From positions 1-39,156 of the IMG/VR virus record IMGVR_UViG_3300017957_000027: 39,156 bases of DNA; one strand, written 5' to 3'. The translations under genes and the position numbers were made by a program. Below, piece after piece: positions 5,506 through 39,156 of this stretch (position 1 is the stretch's first letter; each line of letters begins with the position of its first letter). Source of the DNA: a virus. Under the pieces are notes generated by a model, which saw only the letters and a program-made list of their open reading frames with translations, was not told the origin of the DNA and did not search any database.

Positions 5506-5525
5506 TTCTCAACCCTTCCCTGAAT

Positions 5526-5546: not shown

Positions 5547-5577
5547 CCCAATCACAACTCCGCACTGGAGAACCATC

Positions 5578-6261: not shown

Positions 6262-6296
6262 TTCTCAGCCCTCTCGGCAAACATGCCGTTCGCTTC

Positions 6297-6320: not shown

Positions 6321-6349
6321 GTCGTCGTTTCTGGATACGAAAGTAGGTG

Positions 6350-6378: not shown

Positions 6379-6427
6379 ATCTTGACGCACCTGCTATACG
6401 ATGGTCCCGTCTCTGGAGGCTCTGCTC

Positions 6428-7057
6428 ATGTCCAACAACTACGGGTACGCCAACCCGAACCACATGCAGCCCGCCGGGCAGCAGAACAGCGCCGTCGTGT
6501 CGATGCCCAGCATCGGTCAGATGGGCGGAGTGCAGGCCAACCAGCCCGCATGGTTCCGGTTTCCGTTCTTCCCCACGGCTCCGTTCTACTCCACCAACCC
6601 GAACGTCTCGACGCAGGTCCGGTACTACTCGACCGGGATCACTGCGGCTGACACCGACGTGACGCTCGGGCAGGAGACCATCCGGACCATCACGTTCGAC
6701 ATCCCCGCTCGCGTCATCGCGATCGAGGGCTCGTTCGCGTACACCGCGAACCCGAACACCGACAACTTCCTGGCGAACGGTGGGAACAAGCTCGACACCT
6801 TCCTGTTCCGTGTGGAGTACACGACGGGCGATCGGCTCCACATCAACCCGCGTCTCGCTTCGACGGTCATCGGCTCTGCCGAGAACCCGGCTGAGATCGG
6901 TGGTGTGGGCTACACCGTGGATCAGGGCGCGTCCCTCATCTGCGGACTCACCCCACTGAACAACATCACGGACGCCGACACGACCGCGTGGCGGATCGAC
7001 ATCACCTTCCACTGCCTTGAGATGCGGGGCAGCGCCAACTTCGTGGGCGGTCGGTGA
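6428..7057 (+). CDS. Beta-rich capsid protein candidate (second)
   Basis: A 209-aa protein. ATG 6428 is chosen over ATG 6401 because GGAGG lies 7 bases before it. The N-terminus is Asn/Gln/Pro-rich and flexible (1-45). From about residue 60 to the end there are alternating strands such as TIRTITFDIPARVIAIEG and WRIDITFHCLEM, with polar loops rich in Asn, Asp and Gly, as expected for a jelly-roll. No membrane helix. It starts a GTGA/ATGA-linked run 6428-8590 that ends in the lysozyme gene. It could be the second major capsid protein or a vertex protein; the assignment is inferred. Confidence 0.6.
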   Translation: MSNNYGYANPNHMQPAGQQNSAVVSMPSIGQMGGVQANQPAWFRFPFFPTAPFYSTNPNVSTQVRYYSTGITAADTDVTLGQETIRTITFDIPARVIAIEGSFAYTANPNTDNFLANGGNKLDTFLFRVEYTTGDRLHINPRLASTVIGSAENPAEIGGVGYTVDQGASLICGLTPLNNITDADTTAWRIDITFHCLEMRGSANFVGGR

Positions 7058-7650
7058 GCGACAGGGAACTGCCATACCCCCTTCCGGGAAAGTGGGACCC
7101 GTCAGGCCCGTTCCGGAATCCTGGCGGGACCAACCCGCTTCCGCGACCAGCGAACCTGCCGGTCACGGTGTGGTTCGGTGCGCGTGTTCCCCTCACCTGG
7201 GAGACCATCAACGCAGACGGCGTGCTGTTCCGCGCGACGTGGGCATCTCCCGTCTTCGATCTGTACCCCTGGCTGCGTGGCATGTCTCCGGACAGCGCCA
7301 ACCAGTTGGCTGCGGGCGCGAACCCCATCTGGAACGGACCTTCGAGCCTCTTCCGGTTCCAGTTGAACTCGCCCGCCACGAACGGTCTGGGTGGACTTGA
7401 CCTCCGGGGTTTCCGTGCCACCTACCGTGAGTTTGGTCACATCTCGCAGGTCACGCAGGTCGAGAGCATTGACGCAGAGCAGGACATCACTGCTCAGGTC
7501 ACTGCGGCGCAGGACGCATCGGTGGTCCTGATCCAGCCCAAGAACATCCGGTACTACCGGGTCTTCACGACGTTCGAGGTGCTGGACAACTTCTCGTATG
7601 GGGGCGGCAACGCAGGTCCCCAGATCGCGATTCAGGGAGCGATGTACTGA
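7054..7650 (+). CDS. Beta-rich virion protein candidate (third)
   Basis: A 198-aa protein starting with GTG 7054 in a GTGA overlap with the preceding gene. The N-terminal 40 residues are Pro/Gly-rich. The rest alternates beta strands and loops, with many aromatic residues and a Gly/Asn-rich segment before VFTTFEVLDNF. No membrane helix or enzymatic motif. Its translational coupling to the genes at 6428 and 7650 points to products needed in related amounts, such as capsid, penton or spike components. Function inferred from context only. Confidence 0.55.
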   Translation: MSDRELPYPLPGKWDPSGPFRNPGGTNPLPRPANLPVTVWFGARVPLTWETINADGVLFRATWASPVFDLYPWLRGMSPDSANQLAAGANPIWNGPSSLFRFQLNSPATNGLGGLDLRGFRATYREFGHISQVTQVESIDAEQDITAQVTAAQDASVVLIQPKNIRYYRVFTTFEVLDNFSYGGGNAGPQIAIQGAMY

Positions 7651-8039
7651 TGCCTACCGTCAGTGGAAAGGCCGTTGGCTCCCAGAACGTCGCAAAGGCC
7701 GGGGTCAACCTCGAACAGAAGCAGGCGGACCTCGCTGCGGGCGTCACGTTCATCACGGACACGCTCGTCACTGCCGGGATGCCGAAGCTGTCGTTCGCGG
7801 TGACGTGCGACCAGACCCACAGCATTCAGGTCCTGTGTCAGGTCGCCTACCGTCGTGCGGCTGCGGGTATCGACAACTACGAGTTCCTGTCGATCCTGCC
7901 TGTCCAGCTTGCCAGCGCCAGCGGGCCGTTCTTCATTGAGATCAACGCCCCCGCTCAGGCCATCCGGATGCAGGTCACGAACCCCGGCGGGGCTCCCTCG
8001 ACGATCGACATCACGACGATCCTGATGGCTTCGGGCTGA
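7650..8039 (+). CDS. Small beta-rich virion protein candidate (fourth)
   Basis: A 129-aa protein with an ATGA overlap to both neighbours. After a short basic/helical start (1-30) it consists of regularly spaced beta strands (KLSFAVTCD, IQVLCQVAY, FFIEINAPAQAIRMQV, STIDITTILM). Two cysteines lie in the core strands. The size fits a penton, spike-base or decoration protein, a role inferred from its place between a capsid candidate and the membrane lysozyme. No family recognised. Confidence 0.55.
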   Translation: MPTVSGKAVGSQNVAKAGVNLEQKQADLAAGVTFITDTLVTAGMPKLSFAVTCDQTHSIQVLCQVAYRRAAAGIDNYEFLSILPVQLASASGPFFIEINAPAQAIRMQVTNPGGAPSTIDITTILMASG

Positions 8040-8590
8040 TGAGCCTCATTGGCGAGTTGACGAGCCGCGTCTCGCTGACCCCTCAGCAGTCCCAGAACGC
8101 CGCCATCATCATCGGGGAGTTCCGCAGTGCCGGGCTCCCTGCGAGTCTGGCTGCGGGTGCCATCGCCAATGCGTGGCACGAGAGCCGCTTGAACCACCTC
8201 GCTCACAACAAGTGGGGCGAGGACTCGGCAGGTCTGTTCCAGTTGAACGTGCGGGGCCTCGGGCATGGCATGTCGCTGGAGCAGCGGCTCGACCCGATCG
8301 AGAACACGCGCAAGGTCATCGCTGAGATCAAGCGGCGAGACCTCATTCCTCTCGTGAAGCAGAACCCGAGTGTCGCGTTCGCGGCCCAGCTCTTCGCGAA
8401 GGAGATCGAGCGGTGCGCTGCTTGCGGCTACCAGGGCGGAAGCAGCGAACTGTACAAGCGGGCCGAGACCGCCAACAAGTTCTTCCCGACCTACGTCGGG
8501 TATGGCTTCGCTTGGTGGTGGATCCCAGCGGGCGCTCTGGCCGTCGGAGGCGTAGCACTCGGCGTTCGGTACTACCTCAAGAACCGCTGA
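8039..8590 (+). CDS. Phage lysozyme-type peptidoglycan hydrolase with C-terminal membrane anchor
   Basis: A 183-aa enzyme. Residues 13-125 fit the phage tail lysozyme (Phage_lysozyme2-like) fold: LTPQQSQNAAIIIGEF, then AIANAWHESRLN with Glu48 as the expected catalytic acid, then EDSAGLFQLN. A Trp-rich membrane helix (about 159-178) and basic end anchor it. Such enzymes cut the glycan strands of peptidoglycan. In tailed phages the domain sits on tail proteins; an anchored copy next to capsid genes fits a virion-membrane entry enzyme, comparable in role to the transglycosylase of PRD1. ATGA overlap with the upstream gene. Confidence 0.85.
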   Translation: MSLIGELTSRVSLTPQQSQNAAIIIGEFRSAGLPASLAAGAIANAWHESRLNHLAHNKWGEDSAGLFQLNVRGLGHGMSLEQRLDPIENTRKVIAEIKRRDLIPLVKQNPSVAFAAQLFAKEIERCAACGYQGGSSELYKRAETANKFFPTYVGYGFAWWWIPAGALAVGGVALGVRYYLKNR

Positions 8591-8626: not shown

Positions 8627-11600
8627 ATGCCGCGCATCGCTCTCGGAACGCACGTCGAGGTGGATGGCCTCCGTGGCGTCGTTGTGAGGCACAGCCCGCA
8701 GGGCATGGTGGACGTTCAGCCGGATGGAGAGGACTTCATCATCCGGAAGCGTGAGTCCGCCCTCCATCGACTGAACCCGGGCAAGGGCTCTCCTCCGCTC
8801 CGTGTTCGACGCGAAGTGGAGAAGATGCTCCACAACCCACCGTCGTCGTGGAAGGCGCTCTACCGTCGAATGGGGCTCCCTGCGAAGCCCTCGGTCGAGG
8901 ACTTCATCGACACGGTTCGGGGGTACACGCCATCTGGCCGCAGCGCCGAGGCGTACTACGGCCGAGAGATGGGGCAGGGACGACACGTCCCATCCAAGGC
9001 GGTCCGGGAGGCAGCCCTGCATGGCCTCCGGCTCTCCTACGACAACAACTACACCTCTGAGAGCGGTGTGGGCCTCGCCCGTGCCGTTCAACTCGTACTG
9101 GACCCCAGCATCGACGACCTCGCGAAGACCCGGATGCAGGGCTACCTGTCGCGGCACGAGCGGGACAAGCAGGCCAAGAACTTCGGCAACGACAAGAATC
9201 CCAGCGACGGCTACATGGCTTGGCTCAACTGGGGCGGAGATCCCGCAAAGGAATGGCTCGGCATGAGGAACAACCCCGCAGGTCGGAAGCCCGACGTGAT
9301 GAAGAAGCAGGACGCTCAGTTCCAGGCTGTCGTGCAGGGCATCTACGAGACCCTCATGGCGAAGCACCTGGGCGTTGAAGACCTCTACCTGCCGACGGGT
9401 GAGCGGATTGACCTCATCGCGTTCAGTGAGGGTGACCTCAGCAAGCGTGAGGTCCGGGACACGCTGTCCCGCGCCTTCGCCATCGCGACCCGGCAGGGTC
9501 AGAAGCATGGGTACCTCCGTCCCGGAAGCCGGGAGCCCACAGCCAAGGGTCGCCGCCGCGCCTACGCCCGCTTCAAGGACCGGGACCTCCGGGCGCAGAA
9601 CGCGCAGGACTACGAGGTGACGCTTGCGATGGCCCGCAAGAGCAGTCCGCTCCGCGTGGTCCAGAAGGGTCGGGGCAAGTCCAAGAAGTTCTTCGTCGAG
9701 CCTCACATCGAGGGTGTGAGCAAGCGCGGGTACAAGACGCAGCTTGGCGCAGTCAACGCCATCGAGCGGGTCATGGGACTTCGCATGAACCCGGGTCCGC
9801 TCGACGACATGGTGGCGGATCTCGACGGCGACCCCAACACGGTGTCCCTGGGCGAACTGTGGGACGACTTCGACGAGTGGGTCGAGACGAGCAAGGAGCG
9901 GCTCCTCCCGAGCGCATCCAAGTACCACTCCGAACTCATCCAGTCCCTCAACTCCATGTACCGCAAGCGGGGGATGACGCCGCTTGAGGCCAACAAGGCG
10001 ACCGCAGAGGAGTTCCGGAAGCACTACAACTCCTACACGGGCGTCTTCGCTCCTCAGATGCGGAAGGCCGTCGTAGGCATCCTCCTGAAGCTCGATCCCG
10101 AGTCGCTCCGAAGCAGCCCGGCTCAGGTCACGCCGGAACAGCGGGCACGTCTGCGTCAGGTCGAGCGGGCCAAGTTCGGAGGCGCGCGTGTCGTGCCCAG
10201 CGCAGTCGGTCAGTCCGAAGTGGAAGGACCGGCATTCGTCGCAGGCGTCCGGTCCGGAAAGGAGGAATCCGAGCGCCGCAAGGCTTCCAAGGCCAAGGGC
10301 AAGGTCAAGGCAGCAATCGCACGCAAGGGTGATGGGATCGGTGCCCTGAGCCGCAAGGGTAGTGCTGCGGAGGACCGGACCTTCACTGCACCTCCCGGGT
10401 TCCAGGGCGCGAACTACGTGAGCCTCCGGCGCGTCATGGATGAGGAGGGCAACGAGGTCACCGCTGCGGGCCTCATCTCCTACGACGTGGCCGGAAACGG
10501 CAACATGACGCTCTTCTTCAGTGAAGGGGACACACTCCGTCGGCTCTCGCTGAACGTGCCCGATGCCGTCGCGAAGAAGGTCTACTCGGCGTCTTCCGCA
10601 GAAGAAGCCAATGAGATCATGTCCTTGATGGGTCGGACGCCGCTGGGTATCCAGCCGATGTCGATGCAGAACGGGAAGATCGTCTACGCCCCCATCACGC
10701 CCACAGAGGTGCAGACGATCCTCGACGAGAAGCCTGAGGCGAACTTCCGGAAGTTGGCTCAGTACATCTGGGACAACGGCTCCTCGATGCGTGAGCGGGT
10801 CATGGAGTACGTCCCTCCGCGAATCGATCTCGCTGAAGTGACGGTGTTCGACGACCGCCTCGGGAAGCCCACTCAGACCACGACCTACGTCATTCATGGC
10901 GTGGGTGGGAACGTGCGCCGCATTCAGGAAGCCATCCGGCGATCCCAGCCCCGCCGCAAGACGTGGACCTCTTGGAAGGAAGCCGGAGCCAAGTTCTCCG
11001 ACCCGAAGGGAACATGGAACACCCGGGGGTCCCATCGCACGGTCGGGCATCGGGGTAAGTACTACGTCGTCGGCCCTCTGGTGGGAGAGGGCTACTCGGC
11101 CAGTGACTACCGGAAGTACACGAAGTGGCTCCGCCAGTTCGCCAATCTTCCTGCGGAGTTGCAGAAGAAGTACGGCGACACTCTGAGCACCGTCACCCCT
11201 GACCGATTCACGTTCAAGACGAAGACAGCCGCCGAGGCTGTCCGGAAGCGCCTCGACCGGAAGCTGGGAACGAAGCGGGTCCCGCTGGATTCGCTCCCCG
11301 GGTACTACGGGTTCTACATCCGTCCCGAGAAGCAGGGACCCGATCTTGGCTACGCAGCCGCTGTCGCTCTCGCAGACGAACTGGGAGTTGACGGTCCGGG
11401 CCTCATCGTTCCGCAGGGGCGCGGTGCTCAGGTGGCACGACTTGCTGGCGGGGTCAAGAGTAGCCGGGAGTTTGGTCAGGACCGGAGGGTGATTGTCCAG
11501 GGCCTGAAGGACCGGTACAACGAGATCGGAGAGACCTACACCGAAGCCCTTGGGCAAGCGCGCACCCGCCGTGAGCAGGAACGTCTCGCTGGGATCAACG

Positions 11601-11725
11601 AGCGCTGCCAGACCGTCCGCCGGGCACTCAAGATGCTGGACGACTTGAGAAGTGACCCCGAGAAGTTCGAGATTCTGAGCCAGCGCATCGCCAACACTCT
11701 GGATGACATCGAGGACACCTTCTGA
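8627..11725 (+). CDS. Very large hypothetical protein with KOW/SH3-like N-terminus
   Basis: A 1032-aa soluble protein, the longest in the window. Residues 1-45 resemble a small SH3/KOW-type barrel (THVEVDGLRGVVV, then MVDVQPDGEDFIIR). The remainder is basic and multi-domain, with Asn-Pro motifs at several apparent domain joints (RLNPG, RNNPAG, RMNPG, HNPP). A Lys-rich, probably flexible linker lies near residues 540-580. The C-terminus (about 945-1032) is helical. No catalytic motif is recognised. GGAGG precedes ATG 8627. It may be an internal or minor structural protein, possibly DNA-binding; this is a guess from charge and position. Confidence 0.8.
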   Translation: MPRIALGTHVEVDGLRGVVVRHSPQGMVDVQPDGEDFIIRKRESALHRLNPGKGSPPLRVRREVEKMLHNPPSSWKALYRRMGLPAKPSVEDFIDTVRGYTPSGRSAEAYYGREMGQGRHVPSKAVREAALHGLRLSYDNNYTSESGVGLARAVQLVLDPSIDDLAKTRMQGYLSRHERDKQAKNFGNDKNPSDGYMAWLNWGGDPAKEWLGMRNNPAGRKPDVMKKQDAQFQAVVQGIYETLMAKHLGVEDLYLPTGERIDLIAFSEGDLSKREVRDTLSRAFAIATRQGQKHGYLRPGSREPTAKGRRRAYARFKDRDLRAQNAQDYEVTLAMARKSSPLRVVQKGRGKSKKFFVEPHIEGVSKRGYKTQLGAVNAIERVMGLRMNPGPLDDMVADLDGDPNTVSLGELWDDFDEWVETSKERLLPSASKYHSELIQSLNSMYRKRGMTPLEANKATAEEFRKHYNSYTGVFAPQMRKAVVGILLKLDPESLRSSPAQVTPEQRARLRQVERAKFGGARVVPSAVGQSEVEGPAFVAGVRSGKEESERRKASKAKGKVKAAIARKGDGIGALSRKGSAAEDRTFTAPPGFQGANYVSLRRVMDEEGNEVTAAGLISYDVAGNGNMTLFFSEGDTLRRLSLNVPDAVAKKVYSASSAEEANEIMSLMGRTPLGIQPMSMQNGKIVYAPITPTEVQTILDEKPEANFRKLAQYIWDNGSSMRERVMEYVPPRIDLAEVTVFDDRLGKPTQTTTYVIHGVGGNVRRIQEAIRRSQPRRKTWTSWKEAGAKFSDPKGTWNTRGSHRTVGHRGKYYVVGPLVGEGYSASDYRKYTKWLRQFANLPAELQKKYGDTLSTVTPDRFTFKTKTAAEAVRKRLDRKLGTKRVPLDSLPGYYGFYIRPEKQGPDLGYAAAVALADELGVDGPGLIVPQGRGAQVARLAGGVKSSREFGQDRRVIVQGLKDRYNEIGETYTEALGQARTRREQERLAGINERCQTVRRALKMLDDLRSDPEKFEILSQRIANTLDDIEDTF

Positions 11726-12285
11726 TGGCCTACACCCACGCCTACATGCTGAAGCAGAACCTCCGGGACATCGAGATGATGGCTCGGGCCACCAATGCGC
11801 GACTCACGGATGAGTCCTACGTCATGCCGTGGGAGTCAGACCTCGTGAGCCGGGCCTCGACGCACCTGTTCTCGGTCCACCGTCGCCGGAAGCTCCAGCG
11901 GAACTTTGGTGGCGTTTCGCGCGACTACGGCTTCCTTGACGGAGGCTGTGGCACCTTCCTGGGGATCGGTGTGAAGGATCCGGTCAAGAAGGCGTGCATC
12001 CTTGAGCGGAAGATCCGGAAGGCGCAGGACAAGTGCGCTCGGGGCAAGCAGAAGCACTGCGACAAGGCCGCGCGGTACCAGTCCGAACTGGCGACCATCT
12101 CGGGTGGCGGTCTGACTCCCGGTGCAGGTACTCCGCTCGATGCCTACTACCAGCAGGCGTTGCAGGCGCAGCAGATCGCCGCGACGGACGCCTCTCAGGC
12201 CGGTGGGATCGAGAAGTACCTCCCCGTCCTCCTGGCTGGGACCCTGGGCCTCGGGACCATCTACCTCGGGAGCAAGTTGCTGTGA
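11725..12285 (+). CDS. Cysteine-containing membrane protein with RNFG motif
   Basis: A 186-aa protein in ATGA overlap with the long gene before it. It carries an internal LQRNFGG (about residues 57-63), matching the N-terminal motif of four other small proteins here. A cysteine-rich basic helical stretch follows (CGTF, then KACILERKIRKAQDKCARG and KHCDKAA), then a Gly/Ala/Gln linker and a C-terminal membrane helix (about 168-185). The cysteines could bind metal or form disulfides. No family known. Likely an integral virion component. Confidence 0.75.
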   Translation: MAYTHAYMLKQNLRDIEMMARATNARLTDESYVMPWESDLVSRASTHLFSVHRRRKLQRNFGGVSRDYGFLDGGCGTFLGIGVKDPVKKACILERKIRKAQDKCARGKQKHCDKAARYQSELATISGGGLTPGAGTPLDAYYQQALQAQQIAATDASQAGGIEKYLPVLLAGTLGLGTIYLGSKLL

Positions 12286-12908
12286 GCACCTACGGGGCCA
12301 CCACGCGGCAGGCAGAGACCGCTGCGACGACCGTCGGCATCGTCGGGTCGGTGGCGGGGATTCCCAGCACGGCTGCCACTGTCTCCGGGCTGGTAGCGGC
12401 TGCGGGTGCCTCGTCAGCGGCCCCCGTCGTGGGCTGGGTCGTTGCGGGTGGTCTGGTCGTGGCCGCGAGCATCATCCAAGTGGTGACGATGCTCAAGCAG
12501 CGTCGCATCCGTGAGTCACAGGCGATTCAGATCGCGCAGCAACTCGGCCTTCCGGGCGCGGCTTCTGTTCCGGGCTGGATCTTCGAGGCGCTGAAGATGA
12601 CGCCGAGCCGTCGGAAGATTGAAGCGCAGCGCCTGGAGCGCGCGCTCTCCCGTGGTGGGACCATCAAGGACCCGGTGTGGCGCGCCAAGACCAAGCTCAC
12701 CATCATCGGAGCCATCGATCTCATCGAGATGGCTGATGCACGGGCTGCGAAGGGTCTTCGGCCCATCCCTCCGACGGAAGCGGAAGTCCGGGCGATCATG
12801 GCGAAGACCGAGGACATCAAGCGGCGCACCCAGATGGCTGAGTACGCCAAGATCGGAGTGGTCGCAGGAGTCCTCGGGCTGATTGGCTACGCGCTGTTCA
12901 GCGACTGA
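12282..12908 (+). CDS. Multi-helix membrane protein
   Basis: A 208-aa protein starting with GTG 12282 in a GTGA overlap. The N-terminal 70 residues are small-residue-rich and hydrophobic, with membrane helices at about 15-40 and 48-70. A basic amphipathic soluble region (75-185) follows, and the C-terminus is a third membrane helix (about 189-206). No enzymatic motif. The stop overlaps the convergent gene at 12898 by 11 bases. Probably a membrane structural protein; function unknown. Confidence 0.75.
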   Translation: MSTYGATTRQAETAATTVGIVGSVAGIPSTAATVSGLVAAAGASSAAPVVGWVVAGGLVVAASIIQVVTMLKQRRIRESQAIQIAQQLGLPGAASVPGWIFEALKMTPSRRKIEAQRLERALSRGGTIKDPVWRAKTKLTIIGAIDLIEMADARAAKGLRPIPPTEAEVRAIMAKTEDIKRRTQMAEYAKIGVVAGVLGLIGYALFSD

Positions 12909-15455: not shown

Positions 15456-16007
15456 ATGATGCACGGTGTAGTCCGCAAGGGCGTCATCCCCCTCCATTCT
15501 GCCACTGGCGACATGGGCTATGGAGCCTACGGCGTCCGACTCGCTGGCGTGGGCTGGCCGAGTTGGAACTGGCGGCAATACAAGTACTCCCAGTGCCCCG
15601 GCTACCGCAAGCAGGTGGACCTCTTCGTCAAGAAGAAAGAGGAGTACAAGGCGAAGTACGGCACCATCGGCTGGTTCAAGGGAGGCAGCCAGGACGCCGC
15701 CAACCACCTCCGCGCCATCGAGAAGCGTGGCAAGGCCGAGTGGAAGAAGTGCAAGGCTGTACGGAAGGCCGGCAAGAAGGGCTGGACTGACATCTCGGCT
15801 GGCGGTGCGGGCATGGCTGCGGGCGGAAGCGCGCTGGTCGATCCCCTCACCGGGATGCCGATGGACACGTCCATGGTCAGCGCCGAGGTCGATGAGGGCG
15901 GGATCGGAAGTGGAGTCTGGCTCGCACTCGGCGGACTGCTTCTCGTCACGGGCACCGTCGTCGCCGTCAGGAAGTACAGGAAGGGCCGGAAGGGCCGCCG
16001 TCGGTGA
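15456..16007 (+). CDS. C-terminally anchored basic membrane protein
   Basis: A 183-aa protein. AAGGAG lies seven bases before ATG 15456; ATG 15459 is also possible. The N-terminus is Gly/Tyr/Trp-rich (YGAYGVRLAGVGW). A Lys-rich helical middle follows (about 48-112) with two cysteines that frame it (QCPGYR and KKCKAV), then a Gly/Met-rich linker, a membrane helix (about 152-171) and a strongly basic tail. The layout resembles the gene at 11725. Probably a virion membrane protein; function unknown. Confidence 0.78.
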   Translation: MMHGVVRKGVIPLHSATGDMGYGAYGVRLAGVGWPSWNWRQYKYSQCPGYRKQVDLFVKKKEEYKAKYGTIGWFKGGSQDAANHLRAIEKRGKAEWKKCKAVRKAGKKGWTDISAGGAGMAAGGSALVDPLTGMPMDTSMVSAEVDEGGIGSGVWLALGGLLLVTGTVVAVRKYRKGRKGRRR

Positions 16008-18756: not shown

Positions 18757-19053
18757 TCACATCATGGAGTTGTTGTAGCGGTACCAGAGCATCCCGATGA
18801 GGACGGGGCTGCCCAACGTTCCGAGAGTCCACACGAACCGCATGGTGTCGTCCGGGGAGTTCTTGCGGAGGCCGTTCGCGAAGTAGGTGAGAGCGGCGAG
18901 ACCGAGGGTCTGCATCAAGGGAGGATCGACGGGATTGGCCCACTCGTAGCCCATGACCTGTGGCATCTCGGAGCCGTTGGTCTGGCCGAAGTTCCGCTCC
19001 GGCGGGCAGCAGGGCTGGGGCATCGGGTTGTTCATGCACTCAAGACAAGCCAT
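18757..19053 (-). CDS. Small membrane protein with RNFG motif and N-terminal cysteines
   Basis: A 98-aa protein. The first 17 residues contain four cysteines (MACLECMNN, then QPCCPPE), which could bind a metal or form disulfides. ERNFGQTNGS follows, the same motif that begins the downstream gene. Two hydrophobic segments lie at about 47-60 and 74-90. GAGGAA precedes ATG 19053. Membership in the virion membrane set is inferred from the motif and topology. Confidence 0.75.
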   Translation of the reverse strand: MACLECMNNPMPQPCCPPERNFGQTNGSEMPQVMGYEWANPVDPPLMQTLGLAALTYFANGLRKNSPDDTMRFVWTLGTLGSPVLIGMLWYRYNNSMM

Positions 19054-20451: not shown

Positions 20452-21585
20452 TCAAGCGCTCTGCATCTCACCTTCGGACACAAGCATGAGGATGGTCTGA
20501 GTGATCAGAGCCTCGAAGCTCTCGGGATCGATGCCCAGTCCGATGAACTCGTCACGGTACTGCTGGAACTCCGGCTCCCGTCGAAGCATCTTGGCGATGG
20601 CCCTTGCGTTCGGGACTCGACCCTGGGTGTAAGCCGTTTCCACCGTGGAGATGAAGAAGTTCGCTGCCGTCCCCACGCTGTCGGTCGAGACCTGCTCCGG
20701 GTCCATCTCGTCCACGATGGTGTTGACCCAGGAGCGCGTCACAGTGGTGTCGCTCACATCGGCCTGTTCGAGGACTTCCCTCATGTTGAACAGCCCCTCA
20801 GGCTCACCCAGCATGGCGGCGAGCTGTGCGCGGAGTGCCGCGATCTTCGCCTCTGCCTCATCCCAGCGTGCCCGTGCAGACTCCCGCTCTCCCGGCGGTG
20901 TGGTCAGACGCTCGAACAGCGCACTGAACGAGGACTGACGCTGTTCCATCTTCTGGATCTGGGCCTTGAGTTCCTCGACAGACACCGGACGGACTCGCGC
21001 CGACATGCGGGATGCCTCACGCTGCCTCTCCGACTCGGGTCGGAAGCGCAGAGACCCCGCGCCGGAACTGAACGCCTCGGGTGTCCGGAACGCAGGACTC
21101 GTGCGCGGCCAGCCGGTCTGGCCGACCTGACCCTCTCCGTACAGTGACTCCCAGTGTGCCTGGACAGAAACAAGGGCGGTCTGATTCACTGCACGGTTCG
21201 GTAGACGGGTGCGACTCAACGTGACTGAGGCGCGAGCGTTCGGACCGCCGTACCGGCGACTGCCAGCCCCACCGTACAGGTGCTCGACCGCTTCGTACTT
21301 CGTCGCCTGCGGCAGGATGGGCATGAACGCGACCTTCCGGTCTGTCTTGTCGCTGAGTTTCTGCGCTGCCTCCTGCGCCTTCAGGAGCGCCTGCTGCTTG
21401 AGGACATCCGGGGGGAGTCCCATCTCCTGCCGCAGTCGGCCCTGGGGACCTGCCGAACGGATCGCCACCGCGTAGCCCACATCAGGGTCGTCCACGAACA
21501 CGAAGTACCCGAGGAAGTAGCGGGACTGCGTGCTCTTGGTCCCAGGGACCGGGTTCAGGCGCTGACGCGGCAGACGGATTCTCAT
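20452..21585 (-). CDS. Hypothetical protein with coiled-coil
   Basis: A 377-aa soluble protein. The basic N-terminus contains RQRLNPVPG, one of the NP motifs typical of this block. Residues 1-120 look like a compact alpha/beta domain, and 125-190 are polar and low-complexity. Residues about 198-260 form a Glu/Arg/Ala-rich coiled-coil, and the C-terminal 100 residues are helical and acidic. No catalytic motif. ATG 21585 overlaps the upstream stop (ATGA), tying it to the membrane-anchored helical protein at 21582. Structural or assembly role inferred. Confidence 0.75.
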   Translation of the reverse strand: MRIRLPRQRLNPVPGTKSTQSRYFLGYFVFVDDPDVGYAVAIRSAGPQGRLRQEMGLPPDVLKQQALLKAQEAAQKLSDKTDRKVAFMPILPQATKYEAVEHLYGGAGSRRYGGPNARASVTLSRTRLPNRAVNQTALVSVQAHWESLYGEGQVGQTGWPRTSPAFRTPEAFSSGAGSLRFRPESERQREASRMSARVRPVSVEELKAQIQKMEQRQSSFSALFERLTTPPGERESARARWDEAEAKIAALRAQLAAMLGEPEGLFNMREVLEQADVSDTTVTRSWVNTIVDEMDPEQVSTDSVGTAANFFISTVETAYTQGRVPNARAIAKMLRREPEFQQYRDEFIGLGIDPESFEALITQTILMLVSEGEMQSA

Positions 21586-22592
21586 CGCTTCTTGTCACTC
21601 CTGATGAGGAGCCCGAGGATCACACCACCGATCGCCAGCGGGATGAGCGTGGACTTGGTGGGAACGAACGACTTCTGGGAGAGACCGCTGTATCCAGCAG
21701 GGCAGACATCGGGAGCCTGGACCGCAGAGATGGAAGCGTTCGCAGTGGTCGCCTGATTCTTCTGTGCCTGGATGGACCGCTGCATGGCGGGCAGTCCGCT
21801 CAGGAAGGAGAACAGGTCTCCCCGAGACGCGAGCAGAGCAGTGCGCGCGTTCCGAATGTCGTCCCGGTACTGCCGCAGGTACCGGAAGAGCGTGTCCCGC
21901 TTCTGCGTGCGGCTCTTGCGGTCCCAGGCGGACTCCCGCATCTCGATGACCCTCCACCCCCACGCGGTGATTCCGAGAGGTAGAGCGGCGTTCCAGAGGG
22001 TCTGGCGCAGGTCGTACACGGTGTTGAGGACGCCACGCACGCGCGTCACCAAGTCCACGGTCTGGTTGAAGTCCGAGACGAGCTGGGCCTGACCGGCACG
22101 CAGGGACGTGATGGTCTGGTCGGCCTCGGAGAGGACCGTGATCAAGTTCGGCAGCACGACCTGAACCGACTGGTACGACGCGCGGAAGTTGTTGTACTTC
22201 GCGCAGGTGTTCACCGGAGACGGGAGCACCATCGTGTTGACGGAGTTCGTGCTCGTCGTCAGCAGGCTCTTCCACCGCCGCATCGAAGACAGCGCGCTCG
22301 CGGCCGAGGACAGCAGCCTCAGGGTGGACTGAGCCTCGCTCCGAACCTCGTCACGCGCGGACCGAGGCACGACCAGACGCATCAGGACGCTCCAGTCCGA
22401 CGACGCGAGGGGTCGAACCTTGCGCTGGATGTCCCGTGACGATGCGAGTGCAGTGTTGATGGACCGGATTCCACGGTTCAGGTCCCGCGTGACACCCGGA
22501 ATGACCCTCGTGTACGAGGACTTGAACCTACGAAGCTGCGAAGAAGCGTCAGAAGCAGCATCAAATGCCATCTCTTGTAGCGCGTTTGGCAT
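21582..22592 (-). CDS. Long helical protein with C-terminal membrane anchor
   Basis: A 336-aa protein. ATG 22592 is chosen because CGGAGATTCC lies directly before it; an upstream in-frame ATG at 22655 lacks such a site. Nearly the whole protein is Ser/Thr/Arg/Leu-rich helix, suggesting helical bundles or coiled-coils. The end has a Cys-containing segment and a membrane helix (about 313-330) with RSDKKR. It is the first gene of the minus-strand block, read from the promoter candidate at 22691-22719. The layout suits a spike stalk or membrane-spanning conduit protein, but nothing proves this. Confidence 0.78.
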   Translation of the reverse strand: MPNALQEMAFDAASDASSQLRRFKSSYTRVIPGVTRDLNRGIRSINTALASSRDIQRKVRPLASSDWSVLMRLVVPRSARDEVRSEAQSTLRLLSSAASALSSMRRWKSLLTTSTNSVNTMVLPSPVNTCAKYNNFRASYQSVQVVLPNLITVLSEADQTITSLRAGQAQLVSDFNQTVDLVTRVRGVLNTVYDLRQTLWNAALPLGITAWGWRVIEMRESAWDRKSRTQKRDTLFRYLRQYRDDIRNARTALLASRGDLFSFLSGLPAMQRSIQAQKNQATTANASISAVQAPDVCPAGYSGLSQKSFVPTKSTLIPLAIGGVILGLLIRSDKKR

Positions 22593-22684
22593 GGAATCTC
22601 CGTTGCTTCCGACCGTAGCACGCACCCTGGAGCAACAACGGCCCTGATGGCACACGGTGCAGCAAGGATGCCGGTTTCCATTTA

Positions 22685-29668: not shown

Positions 29669-32434
29669 TCACACCTCGTCCCAGTAGAGGCCGTAGTCGG
29701 CCGTTGCGGTGAACGTCACGCCCGGGAGTCCGGGGTGCGTCTGGTTCATGGCTTCCTCGATGATGTGCTTCACACGCCAGGGAATGGAGCCCTTGGGCAC
29801 ATCCCAGGTCCCGTCCGTGCTCAGCGTTGCCCCATCGAGAGGGCACTCCACGACGATGCTGTCGTGGCACTGGTTGATGATCCCCGTCCCCGGTCCCCAG
29901 TGCTCGAACGGAATGGCGTCCAGCACTTCGAGGATGGCGATGTTCATCAGGCTCGCGCCTGCCGCCTGGATCGGGAAGTTCACGATTTCATTGGGGTTCT
30001 CGCCGTCCAAGAAGTCTCGGCGGCGACCCATCACGGGCTCGACCAAGAAGCCCTGCGTCTTGTACGCATCCATCTCGCGCTGCCAGCCCCACTCGAACCG
30101 GGCACCCTCCATCCACTTCTCGTGCATGGCCCGGACCTCACGCAGGGAGATGCGGAGGTAGGGCAGGCTGATGGTCCCGTCATCGTTGACCTGCTCGGTC
30201 TGGGTAATGACGCGGTGAACGGTCTCGACGGTGGCCCAGTACTGACTCGCGTACTGGACGGACTTCGCCAGTCCGCGCAGCTTCTTGGCATTCCCGGTGA
30301 ACTTGGTGCCCGTGGGCCACGGAGGCTCAGAGCCGGCGACCTTGGTGAAGCGGTCCCCGAACACGGCGTGCGCGGTCACGCTGCTGTGAGGGTCCAGTCC
30401 GCGCTCGAAGGCGTCGAGGTACTTGACCGACTTCCACCGCGCAGCCGCGATGCGGAGTTCCAACTGGTCTGCGTCCGCACCGACGAGCATGTGCCCTGGA
30501 GCGGCCCGGACCATTCCACGCAGCTTGCCCGGGAAGTTCTGGGCGTTGATGGGCTTGCTGGACGACAGGCGGCCTGACGTGGTGACGTGGGCGTTGTAGC
30601 CCGGGTGCATCCGTCCCGTCCGAGGGTCCGTGATGCCCCGCTTCTGCTCGCCCGTCTTCTCGCGGTAGAGCGCTTCTTGGTACTCCTCCTCGTCATCCCA
30701 GCCGAACGCGAGGTCGGTGGACGGACGGATCTTCGAGATGTACGTCCCGAGCAGCTTCTGGGCCTTTCGATAGTAGCGGACCTGCTCCAGCAACTCCTTC
30801 TGGTGGTCTTCCAGCGTCGGGATGGTCAGGCACGCACGGATGACCGCATCCGAGGTGGACGGGTCCCCCGCTTTGGTGAACCGGAGCTTGTCCTCGATGT
30901 TCGGTTCGAGTTTCCAGTCCGAGAACAGGAGCCGACGGAGCTGGAGCGTGCTGCCCGGGTTGAGCGGACTGCCCACGATCTCATGGACCCGCTTGAGGTG
31001 CCGCTCCCGCTTCTCGATGTACTCCTTCTCGTACTTCGCGCGGACCTCCTGATCGACGTACATGCCGACTCGGTGCATCCCAGAGCAGACGTACTGGAGG
31101 CGATGGTCACAGGCCATCACCGCGTCCTGCTGCCGCAGCGTCACCTGCTCCAGCATGGGCGCGAGCACTGCGTGGGTCACGCTCACGTCGTAGGCGCAGT
31201 AGACGTGGAGGTCCCGGTCCGTCTCGGACTGGGTGGCCTTCTTGTTGCCCTCTCGGTCCGTCTTCCACGACGGGGCGTCTGTGTAGATGCTGCCGACGAA
31301 CCCGAGACTGTGCGGCAGTTCCGACTCGACCAGTCGATGAACGAGCATCGTGTCGATGACGGGAGCCGCCTGTACGCCGACCTGTGCCTCAAGGCAGAGG
31401 TAGTCGTAGTACCCGAAGTTGTGGCCGACCTTGACCTTCGTCGGGTCGGTGAGCCAGCGACGAAGCACCCCGAGCACCTGATGGAGTTCGGTGTCCGGGT
31501 AGAAGCCCCAGAACTTCTGGCGCATCACGGCCTCGTCGGGCCGCAGGTACTTGTCAGGAACGGCTCCGATGGGGCGCGTCCCGATGACCATGACCTCCCG
31601 GTCCGTCCCCAGCGCGATGCACCGGATGTTCGCGACGAGGCACTCGATGTCATCGGTCTCGACGTCGCAGGACAAGATGGGGTTTCGGTCGATGAACGCC
31701 TGGAGTTCCGCCGCGCTCGGGTTGAACGTGATGTTCGGCGGGGTCCAGTTCATCTCGCCCCGGAAGAAGCGGAACGCCCGCGCCAGATCGCTCTTGAGGA
31801 CGTGGCTCCATCGCTGGTTGTGCATCACGAACGACGGGGAGAGCGTCGGGAGCATCTTGAGACTCCGGCCGTTCCGCTCTGCGTCGATGGGTCCGCCACG
31901 AAGCTCGAAGATGCCCGCGTTCTTTCCGACCAACTGCTTGACCGCAGTCGAGCCGACCGGGATGACGTTGGTGTACTCCGCGATCTCCGACTGGAGCCGA
32001 GGCGCACAGCAGGACATGGGCGTCGGGATCCTTGCTTCGAGTTCGAGCGTGTCTGGATCGATGCCCGCCTTCTTGGCGTCCTTGACCTTGGCCTTGTTCC
32101 GCTTCTCGATCGCACTGTTCTGACGCCGGAGCACTTCGAGGAAGCGACCCAGGTCGTTGTCCGGGGGACGGCAGAGCATCACCGAGGTCAGGTGAACGTC
32201 GTTCCGCCGGATGTTGCTCGCCTTGAGCATCCCCATCAGCATGTTGCCCGCAGGACCGACGAACGGACGGCCCTCGCGGATCTCGTGCTCTCCCGGAGCA
32301 TCACCGACCATGATGGCGATGTCGTTGGGATGACGCTCCGGCATGATGGGACCGTCCGCTCCGTTGAGCGGACAGACATCACACCGGCAGCCCATCTCCA
32401 TCGCGAGGCCCTTGTCGTAGACCCGATCAGCCAT
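29669..32434 (-). CDS. Uracil-DNA glycosylase / 3'-5' exonuclease / family A DNA polymerase fusion
   Basis: A 921-aa fusion. Residues 10-225 match family 4 UDG: GDAPGEHEIREGRPFVGPAG (44-63), CRPP (88) and iron-sulfur cysteines 18, 21, 88 and 142/143, with about 40 extra residues between the last two. Exonuclease: CDVETD (Asp257, Glu259), VGHNFGYYD, and YCAYD (Tyr412, Asp416). Polymerase: motif A DADQLELR (Asp654), O-helix Arg720, Lys724, Tyr728 and Tyr732, motif C CHDS (857-858). All key residues are present, so replication with proofreading is expected. Tyr728 occupies the Phe762 place of E. coli Pol I. The UDG part may recognise or remove uracil; phage SPO1 polymerase is reported to carry a related domain. 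Confidence 0.96.
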   Translation of the reverse strand: MADRVYDKGLAMEMGCRCDVCPLNGADGPIMPERHPNDIAIMVGDAPGEHEIREGRPFVGPAGNMLMGMLKASNIRRNDVHLTSVMLCRPPDNDLGRFLEVLRRQNSAIEKRNKAKVKDAKKAGIDPDTLELEARIPTPMSCCAPRLQSEIAEYTNVIPVGSTAVKQLVGKNAGIFELRGGPIDAERNGRSLKMLPTLSPSFVMHNQRWSHVLKSDLARAFRFFRGEMNWTPPNITFNPSAAELQAFIDRNPILSCDVETDDIECLVANIRCIALGTDREVMVIGTRPIGAVPDKYLRPDEAVMRQKFWGFYPDTELHQVLGVLRRWLTDPTKVKVGHNFGYYDYLCLEAQVGVQAAPVIDTMLVHRLVESELPHSLGFVGSIYTDAPSWKTDREGNKKATQSETDRDLHVYCAYDVSVTHAVLAPMLEQVTLRQQDAVMACDHRLQYVCSGMHRVGMYVDQEVRAKYEKEYIEKRERHLKRVHEIVGSPLNPGSTLQLRRLLFSDWKLEPNIEDKLRFTKAGDPSTSDAVIRACLTIPTLEDHQKELLEQVRYYRKAQKLLGTYISKIRPSTDLAFGWDDEEEYQEALYREKTGEQKRGITDPRTGRMHPGYNAHVTTSGRLSSSKPINAQNFPGKLRGMVRAAPGHMLVGADADQLELRIAAARWKSVKYLDAFERGLDPHSSVTAHAVFGDRFTKVAGSEPPWPTGTKFTGNAKKLRGLAKSVQYASQYWATVETVHRVITQTEQVNDDGTISLPYLRISLREVRAMHEKWMEGARFEWGWQREMDAYKTQGFLVEPVMGRRRDFLDGENPNEIVNFPIQAAGASLMNIAILEVLDAIPFEHWGPGTGIINQCHDSIVVECPLDGATLSTDGTWDVPKGSIPWRVKHIIEEAMNQTHPGLPGVTFTATADYGLYWDEV

Positions 32435-34992: not shown

Positions 34993-35795
34993 CCCCACTT
35001 GCACTTCTCCAGATGCGGGCACCGGCCGTACCTGTGCCAGCATACCAGTTCAGACGTGACCATCGGCCAGTCCCGGGGGTCCTTCGAGTGCTCGGTCCAC
35101 TTCGCGATGAGCTTCTCAGCGAAGTCCACCGTCTCGGGGAACTCGCGCAGCATGTGCGGCGCGGGGGAGAGGTCGAACCGCTGGAACTTGATGTTCCCGG
35201 TGTGCTGGATCATGTTGATCCGCATCCCTGCGAGATCCGAGCCGTACCGCTGCTGCGCCAGCAGTCGGTACCCGTGCATCTGCCCGCTGATCGAGTAGAA
35301 CTCGCGCTGACTGGAGTCCAGACGGCTCGTGGTCTTGTGGTCCACGACCCAGACCCGGCCCTGTCGGTCCCGGTACACGAGGTCGAAGCGTCCGGTGAAG
35401 CGGTGTCCGCCGATCTGACCGTCCGCGAGGCTCTCCACCGCGAGGATCGTCCAGTTCTCCTGCCGGTACTTCTCCAGATAGGCGTCGATGACTTCACATG
35501 CGAGGTCCGCCCACTTCTCACTCAGCCCGCCCGCGAGGTCCGCGTATAAGCGGATCGCCTCCTTGGGTGTGTAGTACAGGTCCGGGTCTCGCCCCTGCTG
35601 GGACTCCATCTGCCGCTGGTAGTGGTGGGCCAGCCCGAGGTGGATCAGCGAGCCCTTGACCAACGGGTCACGCTCCTTCTCCTCCTTGTCCGGGTCGAGG
35701 TAGCCCCAGGCGTACTTCGCAGGGCACTCCAGAACCTGCTGGAGTCGATGCCAGCCACGCGGGCTGGGACCCGTCACAAGGATCCGCTTCTCCAT
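34989..35795 (-). CDS. Cas4/AddB-like PD-(D/E)XK nuclease with iron-sulfur cluster
   Basis: A 268-aa nuclease. KGSLIHLGLAHH (47-58), FTGRFDLVYRD (Asp138), VVDHKTTS (Asp152, Lys154) and QMHGY (172-176) are the RecB-family nuclease motifs. Cys24 near the N-terminus plus Cys252, Cys259 and Cys265 at the C-terminus fit the iron-sulfur staple of Cas4 and AddB. It would degrade or resect DNA ends. Together with the Sak4-like ATPase, the DUF669 protein and the Rad50-like ATPase it forms a full recombination set. There is no Cas1, Cas2 or CRISPR array, so an adaptation role is unlikely. Confidence 0.92.
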   Translation of the reverse strand: MEKRILVTGPSPRGWHRLQQVLECPAKYAWGYLDPDKEEKERDPLVKGSLIHLGLAHHYQRQMESQQGRDPDLYYTPKEAIRLYADLAGGLSEKWADLACEVIDAYLEKYRQENWTILAVESLADGQIGGHRFTGRFDLVYRDRQGRVWVVDHKTTSRLDSSQREFYSISGQMHGYRLLAQQRYGSDLAGMRINMIQHTGNIKFQRFDLSPAPHMLREFPETVDFAEKLIAKWTEHSKDPRDWPMVTSELVCWHRYGRCPHLEKCKWG

Positions 35796-37606
35796 CAGTC
35801 CTCCAGTTTGGAGAGGATGCTGTCTACCAGCGCTTCCTCATCTTCCATGCCGCCGATCGCGTAGCGCGCCTCGGCAAGCTCCGTGTCCTGCGCCACCTTC
35901 TCTACACCCGGCAGCTTCGAGATCAACTTGTCCGCGACATGTTCGTCCACCGTGTTCTCTGCCACGACGTAGTACACGACCACGGGCCGCTTCTGACCAA
36001 GGCGGCAGAACCGGCCTTCCCACTGGCGGACCTGCCCTGGCGTCCAGGGAAGCATCACGAACAGCGCCGCGTCCGTGTCGTGAAGGTTGATGGCCTCACC
36101 AAAGGCATCTCCGGTACCGACCAGCACGCATGGGCCGGGATGCTCCATGTAGTCGTCCACGACCTGCTGGCGCTGCGTCGGAGTCGATCCACCGTGCGCC
36201 GCCCAGACCTGCGTGCCCTTCAACTTCTTGCGGAGTTCCTCTCCGAGGGTGTCCACATCGCGCTTCCGACCCGTGAAGATGACGACCTTCTGCTTGCTTC
36301 CGACGTGATCCCCCACCAGTTGGATGACGGCCTTCCGCTTCTTGCTGGCCGCCTGGGCCAGCTTGCACTCCAGAATCGCAGACGGCCCTCGCTTGGCCGC
36401 AGCACGCAACTCCGCTGGGAAGCCGGCAGTCGGACGCCCCTGGTCCTCGGGAGCGACGTACACGCTCTGTCTACGCTTGGGAGGAAGACTGCGGTGGGTA
36501 TCGCGATAGTCGATGCGGTGGACGACGGGCGAGATGCGCTCCGTCAGTTCCTCCATGTTCGACATGCCCGTGGTGTCATATCCTCCGTAGATGCCGGGCT
36601 TCCGGTCGCAATAGCGGTTCATCCACGTTGTTGCTGACCCCCAGGAGTCGGGCTCCGCGAGGTCCAACTGACCCCACAGGTCACGCACACGGTCTTTGAC
36701 GGGTGTCGCGGTCGTGAGCGCACGACGGTCCGCCAGACGCGCCACCCGGGCTGCTGCGGACGCGGTGTTCAGGACTGGGACCATCATGGACCGCGACCCA
36801 TCATCGTTCTCGGTGATGAACCCACCGCGTGAGCGGGCCTCGGACTCTTGCGACCGGATCATGGCGGCGCGCTCGTCGTCCGTGCCTTCGAGTTCCGTGA
36901 GGGGCACACGGTCCCATCGCTTCGAGGACTTGCCCCGGTGGGACTCGTCGTAGATGGCGCTGGTCCAGGCGTACTGCTCAAGGATCGAGAGGTTGTGGGT
37001 CAGTGCTTCCCAGCCCACGATCACCACGCGGCGACCCGGCTCGGCCATGTACTCCTCAAGTGTCTGGGCAGACTTCTTGAGCGTGGACGCAGGCCGCACG
37101 ACGTAGGGGCGAAGGTGCGTGTACCGCTCGACCTCGCGGCCATACTGGAGACGACTCGCGGCGCGCGTGACAATGATGATGTTGCCCGGCGTCAGCAGGC
37201 CCCACAAGATTCCCGTCAGCGTCTTGCCTGCGCCTGTCGGATGCCAGAAGTGGACGCCGTTCTTGCCCCACGCGAAGCAGAGCGCGGCGCGCTGGTACTC
37301 CGTCAGGAATCCATCCAGCACGAACTCACGAGCCTCTGCTCCTTCTCGGAGTTCTTGCTCTACCTCGTGCCACTCCCTGGGGGCCGCGCTGGGGGGCGCG
37401 GCCCCCGGAGCCCACGACGCCGCGTGGAAGTGAAGTTGAAGTTCCTGAGCCTTCTGCATCGCCAGCGTCAGCGCGTGATGCGGGATGAGCAGGTCACTCC
37501 CGTAGACTCGAACGCCCGGCACGGCGACCATCGCCTCCCGGTGCGCGGGAGTGGGTCGGGAGGTCAGGGTGGCAACGACGTGGGCTGTCTGTGGGATCTT
37601 CCGCAT
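35795..37606 (-). CDS. SNF2-family helicase (second copy, divergent)
   Basis: A 603-aa helicase with an extra N-terminal region (1-100) that resembles the substrate domain of phage SNF2 proteins. Motifs: FLTEYQRAAL (Q-like), Walker A HPTGAGKT (122-129), IYDESH (218-223, DESH instead of DEAH), TTATP (298-302), KVVIFTGRKRDVDTL and motif VI RQWEGRFCRLGQKRP in the second lobe. GCAGGGG precedes ATG 37606. It shares little with the SNF2 protein at 13813, so the two are not a recent duplication. Its place before the nuclease gene (one-base overlap) points to replication or recombination. Confidence 0.92.
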   Translation of the reverse strand: MRKIPQTAHVVATLTSRPTPAHREAMVAVPGVRVYGSDLLIPHHALTLAMQKAQELQLHFHAASWAPGAAPPSAAPREWHEVEQELREGAEAREFVLDGFLTEYQRAALCFAWGKNGVHFWHPTGAGKTLTGILWGLLTPGNIIIVTRAASRLQYGREVERYTHLRPYVVRPASTLKKSAQTLEEYMAEPGRRVVIVGWEALTHNLSILEQYAWTSAIYDESHRGKSSKRWDRVPLTELEGTDDERAAMIRSQESEARSRGGFITENDDGSRSMMVPVLNTASAAARVARLADRRALTTATPVKDRVRDLWGQLDLAEPDSWGSATTWMNRYCDRKPGIYGGYDTTGMSNMEELTERISPVVHRIDYRDTHRSLPPKRRQSVYVAPEDQGRPTAGFPAELRAAAKRGPSAILECKLAQAASKKRKAVIQLVGDHVGSKQKVVIFTGRKRDVDTLGEELRKKLKGTQVWAAHGGSTPTQRQQVVDDYMEHPGPCVLVGTGDAFGEAINLHDTDAALFVMLPWTPGQVRQWEGRFCRLGQKRPVVVYYVVAENTVDEHVADKLISKLPGVEKVAQDTELAEARYAIGGMEDEEALVDSILSKLED

Positions 37607-37612: not shown

Positions 37613-37641
37613 TGCGTACTACCGGATGGCCTTTCTGTCAA
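37613..37641 (-). promoter_or_regulatory. Weak promoter candidate before the second SNF2 gene
   Basis: TTGACA (37636-37641) with TACGCA 17 bases on (37613-37618). It lies partly in coding sequence of the gene before it, and the distance to ATG 37606 would give an almost leaderless mRNA. It could be chance. Confidence 0.25.
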
Positions 37642-38236
37642 TACGTCTGACATAAAGCCTGTAGCCCACGAGCCCGAGAATCCCCAGTGCTGCGGCACCC
37701 CCGAGTGCGAACCACAGACGGTTCTCGCGAAATGCTGCCCAGACCTTCACTGACGGCCAGATCGCATCAACCAGACTGCTGTACGCCGACGACGTGAGGT
37801 GAACGCCGTCGCGGCTGCCCGAGAGGTTCGTGTGCGGGTACAGGTCGAGGTAGCGATACCCGCGCCCGTCACGGAGCAACCAGTCCCGCGTCCACGCATG
37901 ACGTCGGAAGGTCGATGGGTCTCGGCTCGGGTCCACGTCGAGGGGACCGAGCCAGAGGATGTGGGAGACGCCGGCCTGTCGAATCTGCTGTATCAAGCCT
38001 CGGACTTCTTCGCCGTATCTCGGGGTGAGGTTCGCGTTGTTCCCACCCAGCGACAAGATGACTGCATCGACACCGGTCGATGCCAGCCCGCCCATCCCGC
38101 GCTGAGCGTACCGGCGCACTCCCCAGCCGGGTCGGCTCTCCTCGTACACGACGGTGTGACCTTCGCTCTCCAGCAAGTTGCGGAGGCGGGGGAAGGTCGC
38201 CTGCGAGTGGCTGTCTCCGATGAGTGCGAACCGCAT
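37619..38236 (-). CDS. SGNH/GDSL-type hydrolase with C-terminal membrane anchor
   Basis: A 205-aa protein; ATG 38236 overlaps the upstream stop (ATGA). SGNH blocks: IGDSHS (Ser9 nucleophile), a Gly in GMGG (block II), LSLGGNNAN (Asn66, block III) and SRDGVHLT (Asp143, His146, block V). A membrane helix at about 174-195 is followed by YVRRIDRKAIR. SGNH enzymes are esterases or deacetylases, often acting on acetylated sugars of peptidoglycan or surface polysaccharide. The C-terminal anchor is the same as in the virion membrane lysozyme, so a virion-borne envelope-opening enzyme is a fair inference. Confidence 0.88.
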   Translation of the reverse strand: MRFALIGDSHSQATFPRLRNLLESEGHTVVYEESRPGWGVRRYAQRGMGGLASTGVDAVILSLGGNNANLTPRYGEEVRGLIQQIRQAGVSHILWLGPLDVDPSRDPSTFRRHAWTRDWLLRDGRGYRYLDLYPHTNLSGSRDGVHLTSSAYSSLVDAIWPSVKVWAAFRENRLWFALGGAAALGILGLVGYRLYVRRIDRKAIR

Positions 38237-38976
38237 CAGCCTTCCTGCTTCCGGGAGTCGAACACGCTCGCCATCGCGCTTCCCAAGATGCCCGTCAACA
38301 CGAGCAAGACATCCTTGATCATCGAGAGCCCTTCTCCCGTCGAGCCTGTACTCCACTGTGCCACAACGAGCAGCCCGAGCATCACTACAAGACCAACAGT
38401 TCCGGCGAATATCTGCCGCAGGAGCGTGACCTGACCGCTTAGCCTCTGCTGGCGAAGGAGCCCATCCTCGGCGGCAGCACGGGCTTCCTCTGCGACCTGG
38501 GCCAGACGCTCCGCTTCGGCCGTTGCTTCGTGTGCTTCGAGCGTGGCGGCTTCGGCTCGCTCGATCTCGGTCTCAATCTCCGTCCGGTCCTTGAAGAACG
38601 CGACGAAGTACCGTTCCTCGTTGTTCCTCAGGTCGCAGACGTTCGCCTCGACACTGACCTGGGAGCCGTCCGCACGCACCGCGTGGAGCTTCCGCCACGA
38701 GCCCATGATGCCCGTCTTCTTGATCTTCCCGCCGTTCGCGCGCTCGACGTAAGATCCCACGTTGCCTCGATGATCTCGGGCAATCTCTGACGGCATCAGG
38801 GAGCGGACATCCATCCCCCGCATGGAATCGGGAGAGGGGAAACCGAACAGAACAGCCGCAGGACCATTGGCGTGCAAGATGTCGATGTTGCCGCTGCCAT
38901 CAGTCGGGACGGACCCGATCACGATGGCGATCTGTACCCGCTCAGACAGGTACTCGATGGTCTCGCGGACGTTCAT
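38236..38976 (-). CDS. PAS-domain protein with coiled-coil and two C-terminal membrane helices
   Basis: A 246-aa protein. Residues 14-133 form a PAS domain: DILHANGPAAVLFGF, then MRGMDVRSLMPSEIARDH, then RADGSQVSVEANV, then RYFVAFFKDRTE. A Glu/Ala coiled-coil follows (134-185), then two membrane helices (about 187-207 and 216-238) and a charged end (DSRKQEG). PAS domains sense small ligands, redox state or light; no kinase or cyclase output domain is present. The C-terminal hairpin with basic tail resembles small phage holins in layout, so a sensor-controlled lysis or membrane protein is possible. ATGA overlaps on both sides. Very unusual for a virus. Confidence 0.85.
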   Translation of the reverse strand: MNVRETIEYLSERVQIAIVIGSVPTDGSGNIDILHANGPAAVLFGFPSPDSMRGMDVRSLMPSEIARDHRGNVGSYVERANGGKIKKTGIMGSWRKLHAVRADGSQVSVEANVCDLRNNEERYFVAFFKDRTEIETEIERAEAATLEAHEATAEAERLAQVAEEARAAAEDGLLRQQRLSGQVTLLRQIFAGTVGLVVMLGLLVVAQWSTGSTGEGLSMIKDVLLVLTGILGSAMASVFDSRKQEG

Positions 38977-39156
38977 CAGTAGAACTCAACCCAGCCCACG
39001 CTGCCGAAGAATGTCGTGCTCGACGTGCCGAGGGGCCTCACTGCGAGCGTGAGGGTGTCCTGGGTGCCGGCGTAGTCGGAAGACACGGGTACATCCGACG
39101 CGATGGGAGAACCTGCGGATCCACCCTTCGTCGGGCCACCGCCGCCGAACCCGTAC
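38976..39156 (-). CDS. Partial protein, C-terminal end only
   Basis: The reading frame enters from the right edge and stops with TGA at 38978-38976, overlapping the PAS gene start (ATGA). The visible 59 residues begin Gly-rich (YGFGGGGPTKGGSAGSP) and continue in beta-strand style (DTLTLAVRPLG, then FFGSVGWVEFY). A glycine-rich linker before a beta-rich end is common in fibre or spike proteins, but too little is visible for an assignment. Confidence 0.6.
   Translation of the reverse strand, partial: YGFGGGGPTKGGSAGSPIASDVPVSSDYAGTQDTLTLAVRPLGTSSTTFFGSVGWVEFY

Follow-up and report, generated by a model that had tools for sequence, protein, structure and literature searches.

We identified a viral gene that encodes a conserved three-part protein: a PAS domain of the haem-sensor class with an invariant histidine, a helical linker that occurs in two lengths one heptad apart, and a C-terminal membrane hairpin homologous to that of a PAS-less protein. 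We tentatively propose that a cytoplasmic PAS dimer of this class controls a lysis-linked membrane hairpin, which would act as a holin or as a holin regulator. The gene lies in IMG/VR virus record IMGVR_UViG_3300017957_000027 (positions 1 to 39,156), and this entire 39,156-nucleotide stretch is referred to here as the window. Its status as a virus record agrees with the initial annotation, which had described a virus-like genome from the letters alone.

The PAS gene, its neighbours and its distribution

The gene occupies the end of the window together with the following neighbours:

38976–39155, minus strand: upstream glycine-rich gene, C-terminal 59 codons, truncated by the window end
38236–38976, minus strand: PAS–helical linker–membrane hairpin protein, 246 amino acids, ATG start (open reading frame list, homologues, structure model)
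37619–38236, minus strand: SGNH/GDSL hydrolase, 205 amino acids, with a C-terminal membrane segment; its start overlaps the PAS gene stop by one base
35795–37606, minus strand: SNF2-type helicase, the syntenic anchor for locating sister virus L041

The PAS gene is the middle member of a tightly packed run and overlaps each neighbour by one base (TGATG): the TGA of the glycine-rich gene overlaps its ATG, and its own stop overlaps the hydrolase ATG. Given the window's base composition, the probability that a stop-free run as long as 38236–38976 arises by chance is about 0.001 for each starting position. The decisive sequence evidence, which confirms this reading frame as a real gene, is its conservation in homologues 50–70% identical to it, with synonymous sites saturated.

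Because the PAS stop overlaps the hydrolase ATG, the hydrolase is placed at 37619–38236. Its start is most likely 38236 rather than the GTG at 38356 given in the mechanical list, as the longer start is not needed. The protein matches Pfam Lipase_GDSL_2 (1e-7) and contains GDSH, GGNN and DGVH motifs, and no relative of its gene was found among the viral contigs searched. The overlap with an envelope hydrolase gene noted in the initial annotation is thus real and extends over just one base. The motifs, the Pfam match and the C-terminal membrane segment agree with that description of the enzyme, and its envelope substrate is putative.

Scans of viral contigs yielded eight homologues, 50–70% identical to the window protein, which together with it form a nine-sequence alignment (A4). 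Beyond this set, the scans gave further copies that are nearly identical and two partial sequences located at contig ends (L016 and L017). The contigs that carry homologues are 8 to 376 kb long, with one hairpin copy per record. Within the family, synonymous sites are saturated and the protein sequence is retained; the second membrane helix (TM2) is identical in the window and in L004, even at serines encoded by different codon families.

A cellular origin of the PAS–hairpin protein was rejected, as neither the full protein nor its hairpin had a relative in either of two scans covering 84,980 bacterial and archaeal species genomes. No full-length relative was found by tblastn among 50,697 named phage records, and plasmid matches were limited to the PAS part. 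A viral structure library contained other phage and giant-virus PAS proteins, none evidently matching over the hairpin. An origin in defence systems was also rejected; PADLOC matches were weak only and fell mostly across the coil.

Judged from sequence, the window may represent a tailless bacterial virus with a jelly-roll capsid. The protein at 6401–7057 (plus strand, with neighbours across 5524–8039) weakly matches the Sulfolobus polyhedral virus 1 capsid protein VP4 (SPV1_VP4; E 0.0016, below the cut-off). No relatives of this putative capsid protein were found, and its single-sequence model (pLDDT 35) is too poor to settle the virus type. A search of the window with PF03237 detected no terminase. 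At least eight predicted window proteins carry a single C-terminal membrane helix (2–2556, 8039–8590, 11725–12285, 15456–16007, 21582–22655 and 37619–38236). They include lysozyme-like (8039–8590), peptidoglycan-binding (1981–2556) and SGNH (37619–38236) proteins, and they share a common membrane-anchoring design.

These helix-ending proteins, the VP4 match and the terminase result would all fit a PAS–hairpin protein that serves, in the window's virus, as a structural component of a virion membrane. We consider this very improbable, since the same protein occurs in two phages that should have no such membrane: L013, in which a gene for a T4-like major capsid protein (phrog_138, 1e-75) lies two genes upstream of the PAS gene, and L004, which has an apparent tape-measure gene, read from sequence.

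The window has several further features of its own. An RNFG motif, often near the N-terminus, is common to unrelated-looking proteins of the window (2–445, 1299–1661, 11725–12285 and 18757–19053) and of L041 (744–1394). The 683-residue protein at 3454–5505 (plus strand) has a long N-terminal part rich in Lys and Arg, with repeats of the NPRRKRRR type, a single membrane segment and, close to its C-terminus, repeats of the GALNGLAYTSG type; it has no Pfam or PHROG match. The protein at 29669–32434 (minus strand) is DNA polymerase I-like (phrog_17, 4e-92) with an N-terminal part that reads like uracil-DNA glycosylase, and L041 encodes a protein of the same layout (10022–12694).

Class of the PAS domain

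The PAS domain and two of its invariant residues map as follows:

38584–38937, minus strand: PAS domain, residues about 14–131, haem-sensor class
38770–38772, minus strand: H69 codon, opposite His194, the haem ligand of SmFixL, in the alignment; the same residue in all nine sequences
38692–38694, minus strand: R95 codon, opposite Arg214 in the FG loop of SmFixL; the same residue in all nine sequences

The domain scores above the cut-off of NCBIfam TIGR00229 (30.6 bits versus 22.9) and below those of Pfam PAS_9 (21.0 versus 27) and Pfam PAS. Homologue L012 exceeds the PAS_9 cut-off (28.5) and matches the NCBIfam FixL (1e-13) and DosP (2e-8) models. When the family profile was compared with all solved structures, the matches were FixL (1e-11), BjFixL, DosP (1e-7), FG214 and YddU, all haem PAS proteins. 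No others were significant, the first non-haem chain being LOV-type at 0.06. The structure model of the window protein (mean pLDDT 78) has FixL as its top fold match (Z 16.6) and, with the TIGR00229 score, bears out the PAS domain of the initial annotation. Its other top matches are FixL, DOS/DosP and FG214 with one exception, 3mfx (SO_1695; ligand not annotated, Z 15.4), and the remaining PAS folds score Z 12.5 and lower.

In SmFixL, the haem is ligated by His194 and has Ile209, Ile210, Leu230 and Val232 over its distal side (PMC10765370). These five residues align with H69, I90, M91, A111 and V113 of the window protein, respectively. H69, the predicted proximal histidine on the F-alpha helix, is invariant across A4, as are Y76, W94 and R95; I90 and V113 are likewise invariant. 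In the distal pocket, I90, M91, V113 and R95 fit the SmFixL arrangement, and Arg200 and Leu230 are replaced by Ser75 and Ala111.

Sequence comparison and modelling argue strongly that the domain belongs to the haem-sensor (FixL/DosP) class, with a match that is incomplete because FixL Arg200 corresponds to Ser75 here. Haem would be the expected cofactor. This class is in line with the redox-type signal at which the initial annotation had guessed.

The window protein resembles FixL in fold, profile score, the ligating histidine, the equivalents of Ile209 and Val232, the FG-loop arginine and the helical linker that leaves the PAS domain. It differs in lacking FixL's Arg200 and Leu230, in having W94 in the FG loop and in its output, where a membrane hairpin takes the place of FixL's histidine kinase. 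DosP (EcDOS) is similar in profile (1e-7) and fold (Z 14.5), but its cyclic-di-GMP phosphodiesterase output is absent from the window protein.

The replacement of Arg200 and Leu230 and the presence of the unannotated 3mfx among the fold matches would also suit a PAS domain without haem, one that binds a flavin or small metabolite or serves in dimerization only, with the same membrane output. Sequence cannot predict haem binding with certainty. We nevertheless regard a haem-free domain as improbable, because only haem PAS proteins were significant in the profile search and because the ligating histidine is invariant among variable neighbouring residues.

Linker and membrane hairpin

The remainder of the protein consists of three segments:

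38419–38583, minus strand: helical linker, residues about 132–186, predicted coiled coil
38353–38415, minus strand: membrane helix 1 (TM1), residues about 188–208 (hydropathy, model)
38251–38319, minus strand: membrane helix 2 (TM2), residues about 220–242, LLVLTGILGSAMASVFDSR, 21 of 23 positions invariant

In the structure model, a single helix runs unbroken from the end of the PAS domain through TM1 (residues 132–210) and is followed by a second helix (216–243). Hydropathy places membrane segments at residues 188–206 and about 217–241. Both the coiled-coil linker and the membrane hairpin described in the initial annotation are recovered in this way. The spacing between the DR closing the PAS domain and the [ST]GQ ahead of TM1 is 51 residues in seven sequences and 44 in two, a difference of exactly one heptad. 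One-heptad length steps have also been reported in the linkers of LOV kinases (PMC6798134). In the few lineages represented, the heptad-spaced lengths are suggestive of signal transmission through the linker.

Hydropathy and charge predict an N-in, C-in topology with a cytoplasmic PAS domain; the PAS domain is placed there because three to five Lys/Arg residues precede TM1 and the loop is net acidic. The hairpin is the best-conserved part of the protein. Holins usually diverge fast, and a near-invariant TM2 would be unusual for one. This conservation suggests a specific docking or assembly constraint.

Lysis genes and the holin question

Ten other viral contigs encode a sensor-less 131-residue protein that ends in a homologous hairpin (hhalign 99%, 5e-18). 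At the loci read, tail genes are followed by a PGBD-CHAP endolysin (phrog_9589, lysis, 7e-14), small membrane proteins and then the hairpin protein. These PAS-less cassettes include further membrane proteins that are candidate holins. The helicase of sister virus L041 is 77% identical to that of the window. Between this helicase and a fibre-like gene, L041 has an endolysin-like gene (phrog_33083, 3e-15) where the window has the PAS and SGNH genes. The position of the PAS-less homologue behind a CHAP endolysin and the content of the L041 slot support a link between the hairpin and lysis genes, as read from gene order.

The surroundings of the PAS gene vary among the homologues. In L002 it is directly followed by a matrixin-type metalloprotease gene (8777–9442; Pfam M10, 3e-13) and, two genes downstream, by an SLT transglycosylase gene. 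In L003 and L004 it is convergent with an amidase endolysin cassette. The L016 fragment carries the hairpin end immediately upstream of what look, by sequence, like genes for terminase small and large subunits. The flanking genes in the large-phage lineages (L006, L007, L012 and L013) are not lysis genes; L006 encodes a HEIGHALGWGH-motif protein near the PAS gene (4586–5263, minus strand).

The initial annotation had proposed a PAS-gated holin and a comparison of the helices with holin families. No holin family in Pfam, PHROGs or NCBIfam gave a match; holins are diverse, and their diversity makes this absence compatible with a holin. One family member weakly matched phrog_689 (holin, E 0.52). 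A T4-type holin in the same phages was rejected, as T4-type holin T (Pfam accession PF11031) had no match at E 0.1 in 11 records including the window. The holin search in the large phages covered this family and saw no member. In the literature searched, which leaves most subscription journals outside its coverage, we found no account of a PAS domain fused to a holin.

Class II two-helix phage holins, such as S21, form N-in, C-in hairpins. The window protein is similar to them in its predicted topology and short loop and in having a PAS-less homologue beside an endolysin. It differs in its lack of a holin family sequence match, its large N-terminal sensor and its near-invariant TM2. In favour of a plain holin are the sensor-less form in lysis cassettes, the single hairpin copy per record and the search of the large phages for T4-type holins, which gave none; the lack of a family match and the conserved TM2 speak against it. 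In T4 lysis inhibition, holin T acts with a separate antiholin, RI, and the signal is sensed in the periplasm (PMC11413866). Signal-responsive control of lysis by a soluble domain attached to a membrane protein would be common to both systems. T4 differs in that sensing is periplasmic and done by the separate antiholin, that T has a single membrane helix and that no PAS domain is involved. VqmA of vibriophage VP882, with DPO as its ligand, is a PAS transcription factor that leads to host lysis (PMC8284805). It likewise is a phage PAS protein linking a small-molecule signal to host lysis, but acts as a transcription factor via Qtip and is not a membrane protein.

The near-invariance of TM2 across very different phages, as expected for a specific binding surface, the lack of a holin family match and the separation of the PAS gene from lysis genes in the large phages could instead indicate a membrane-anchored haem-PAS dimer that neither forms nor gates holes. 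The docking partner of such a dimer would be a conserved membrane protein of host or phage, and the effect could be, for instance, a change in respiration, envelope state or superinfection. We weigh this seriously and judge it unlikely, given that a PAS-less homologue sits in a lysis cassette, that an endolysin-like gene fills the L041 slot and that no host partner is known.

We favour a sensor-controlled, lysis-associated hairpin because the PAS class, the linker and the link to lysis genes point to it together. The cytoplasmic PAS dimer of the haem-sensor class would read a gas or redox signal, which would travel down a parallel coiled coil into the two-helix membrane hairpin (N-in, loop out, C-in). 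Within the lysis machinery, this hairpin would be either the holin itself or an antiholin-like regulator, and the cell signal would advance or delay lysis. Haem binding, the identity and sign of the signal, the dimerization and the making or controlling of holes by the hairpin are what we infer in this scheme. A more specific proposal, that a holin or antiholin is gated by a haem gas or redox sensor in the same polypeptide, with O2, NO, CO or haem redox state setting lysis by a mechanism common to the window virus and phages on contigs up to 376 kb, strikes us as rather unlikely when taken as a whole. The PAS-gated holin of the initial annotation is in part supported: its sensor class and lysis association are now better founded than that annotation could know, no holin family match accompanies them, and a pore would be a further, conjectural step.

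Nature supplies a sensor-less hairpin and a linker variant that is one heptad shorter, which makes the proposal directly testable. The usual picture of lysis timing is of an internal clock, set as holin accumulates. If our proposal is true, these phages would couple the timing of lysis to a cell state that they sense, using a sensor of known biochemical class, and haem gas sensing would be added to the known phage-carried functions.
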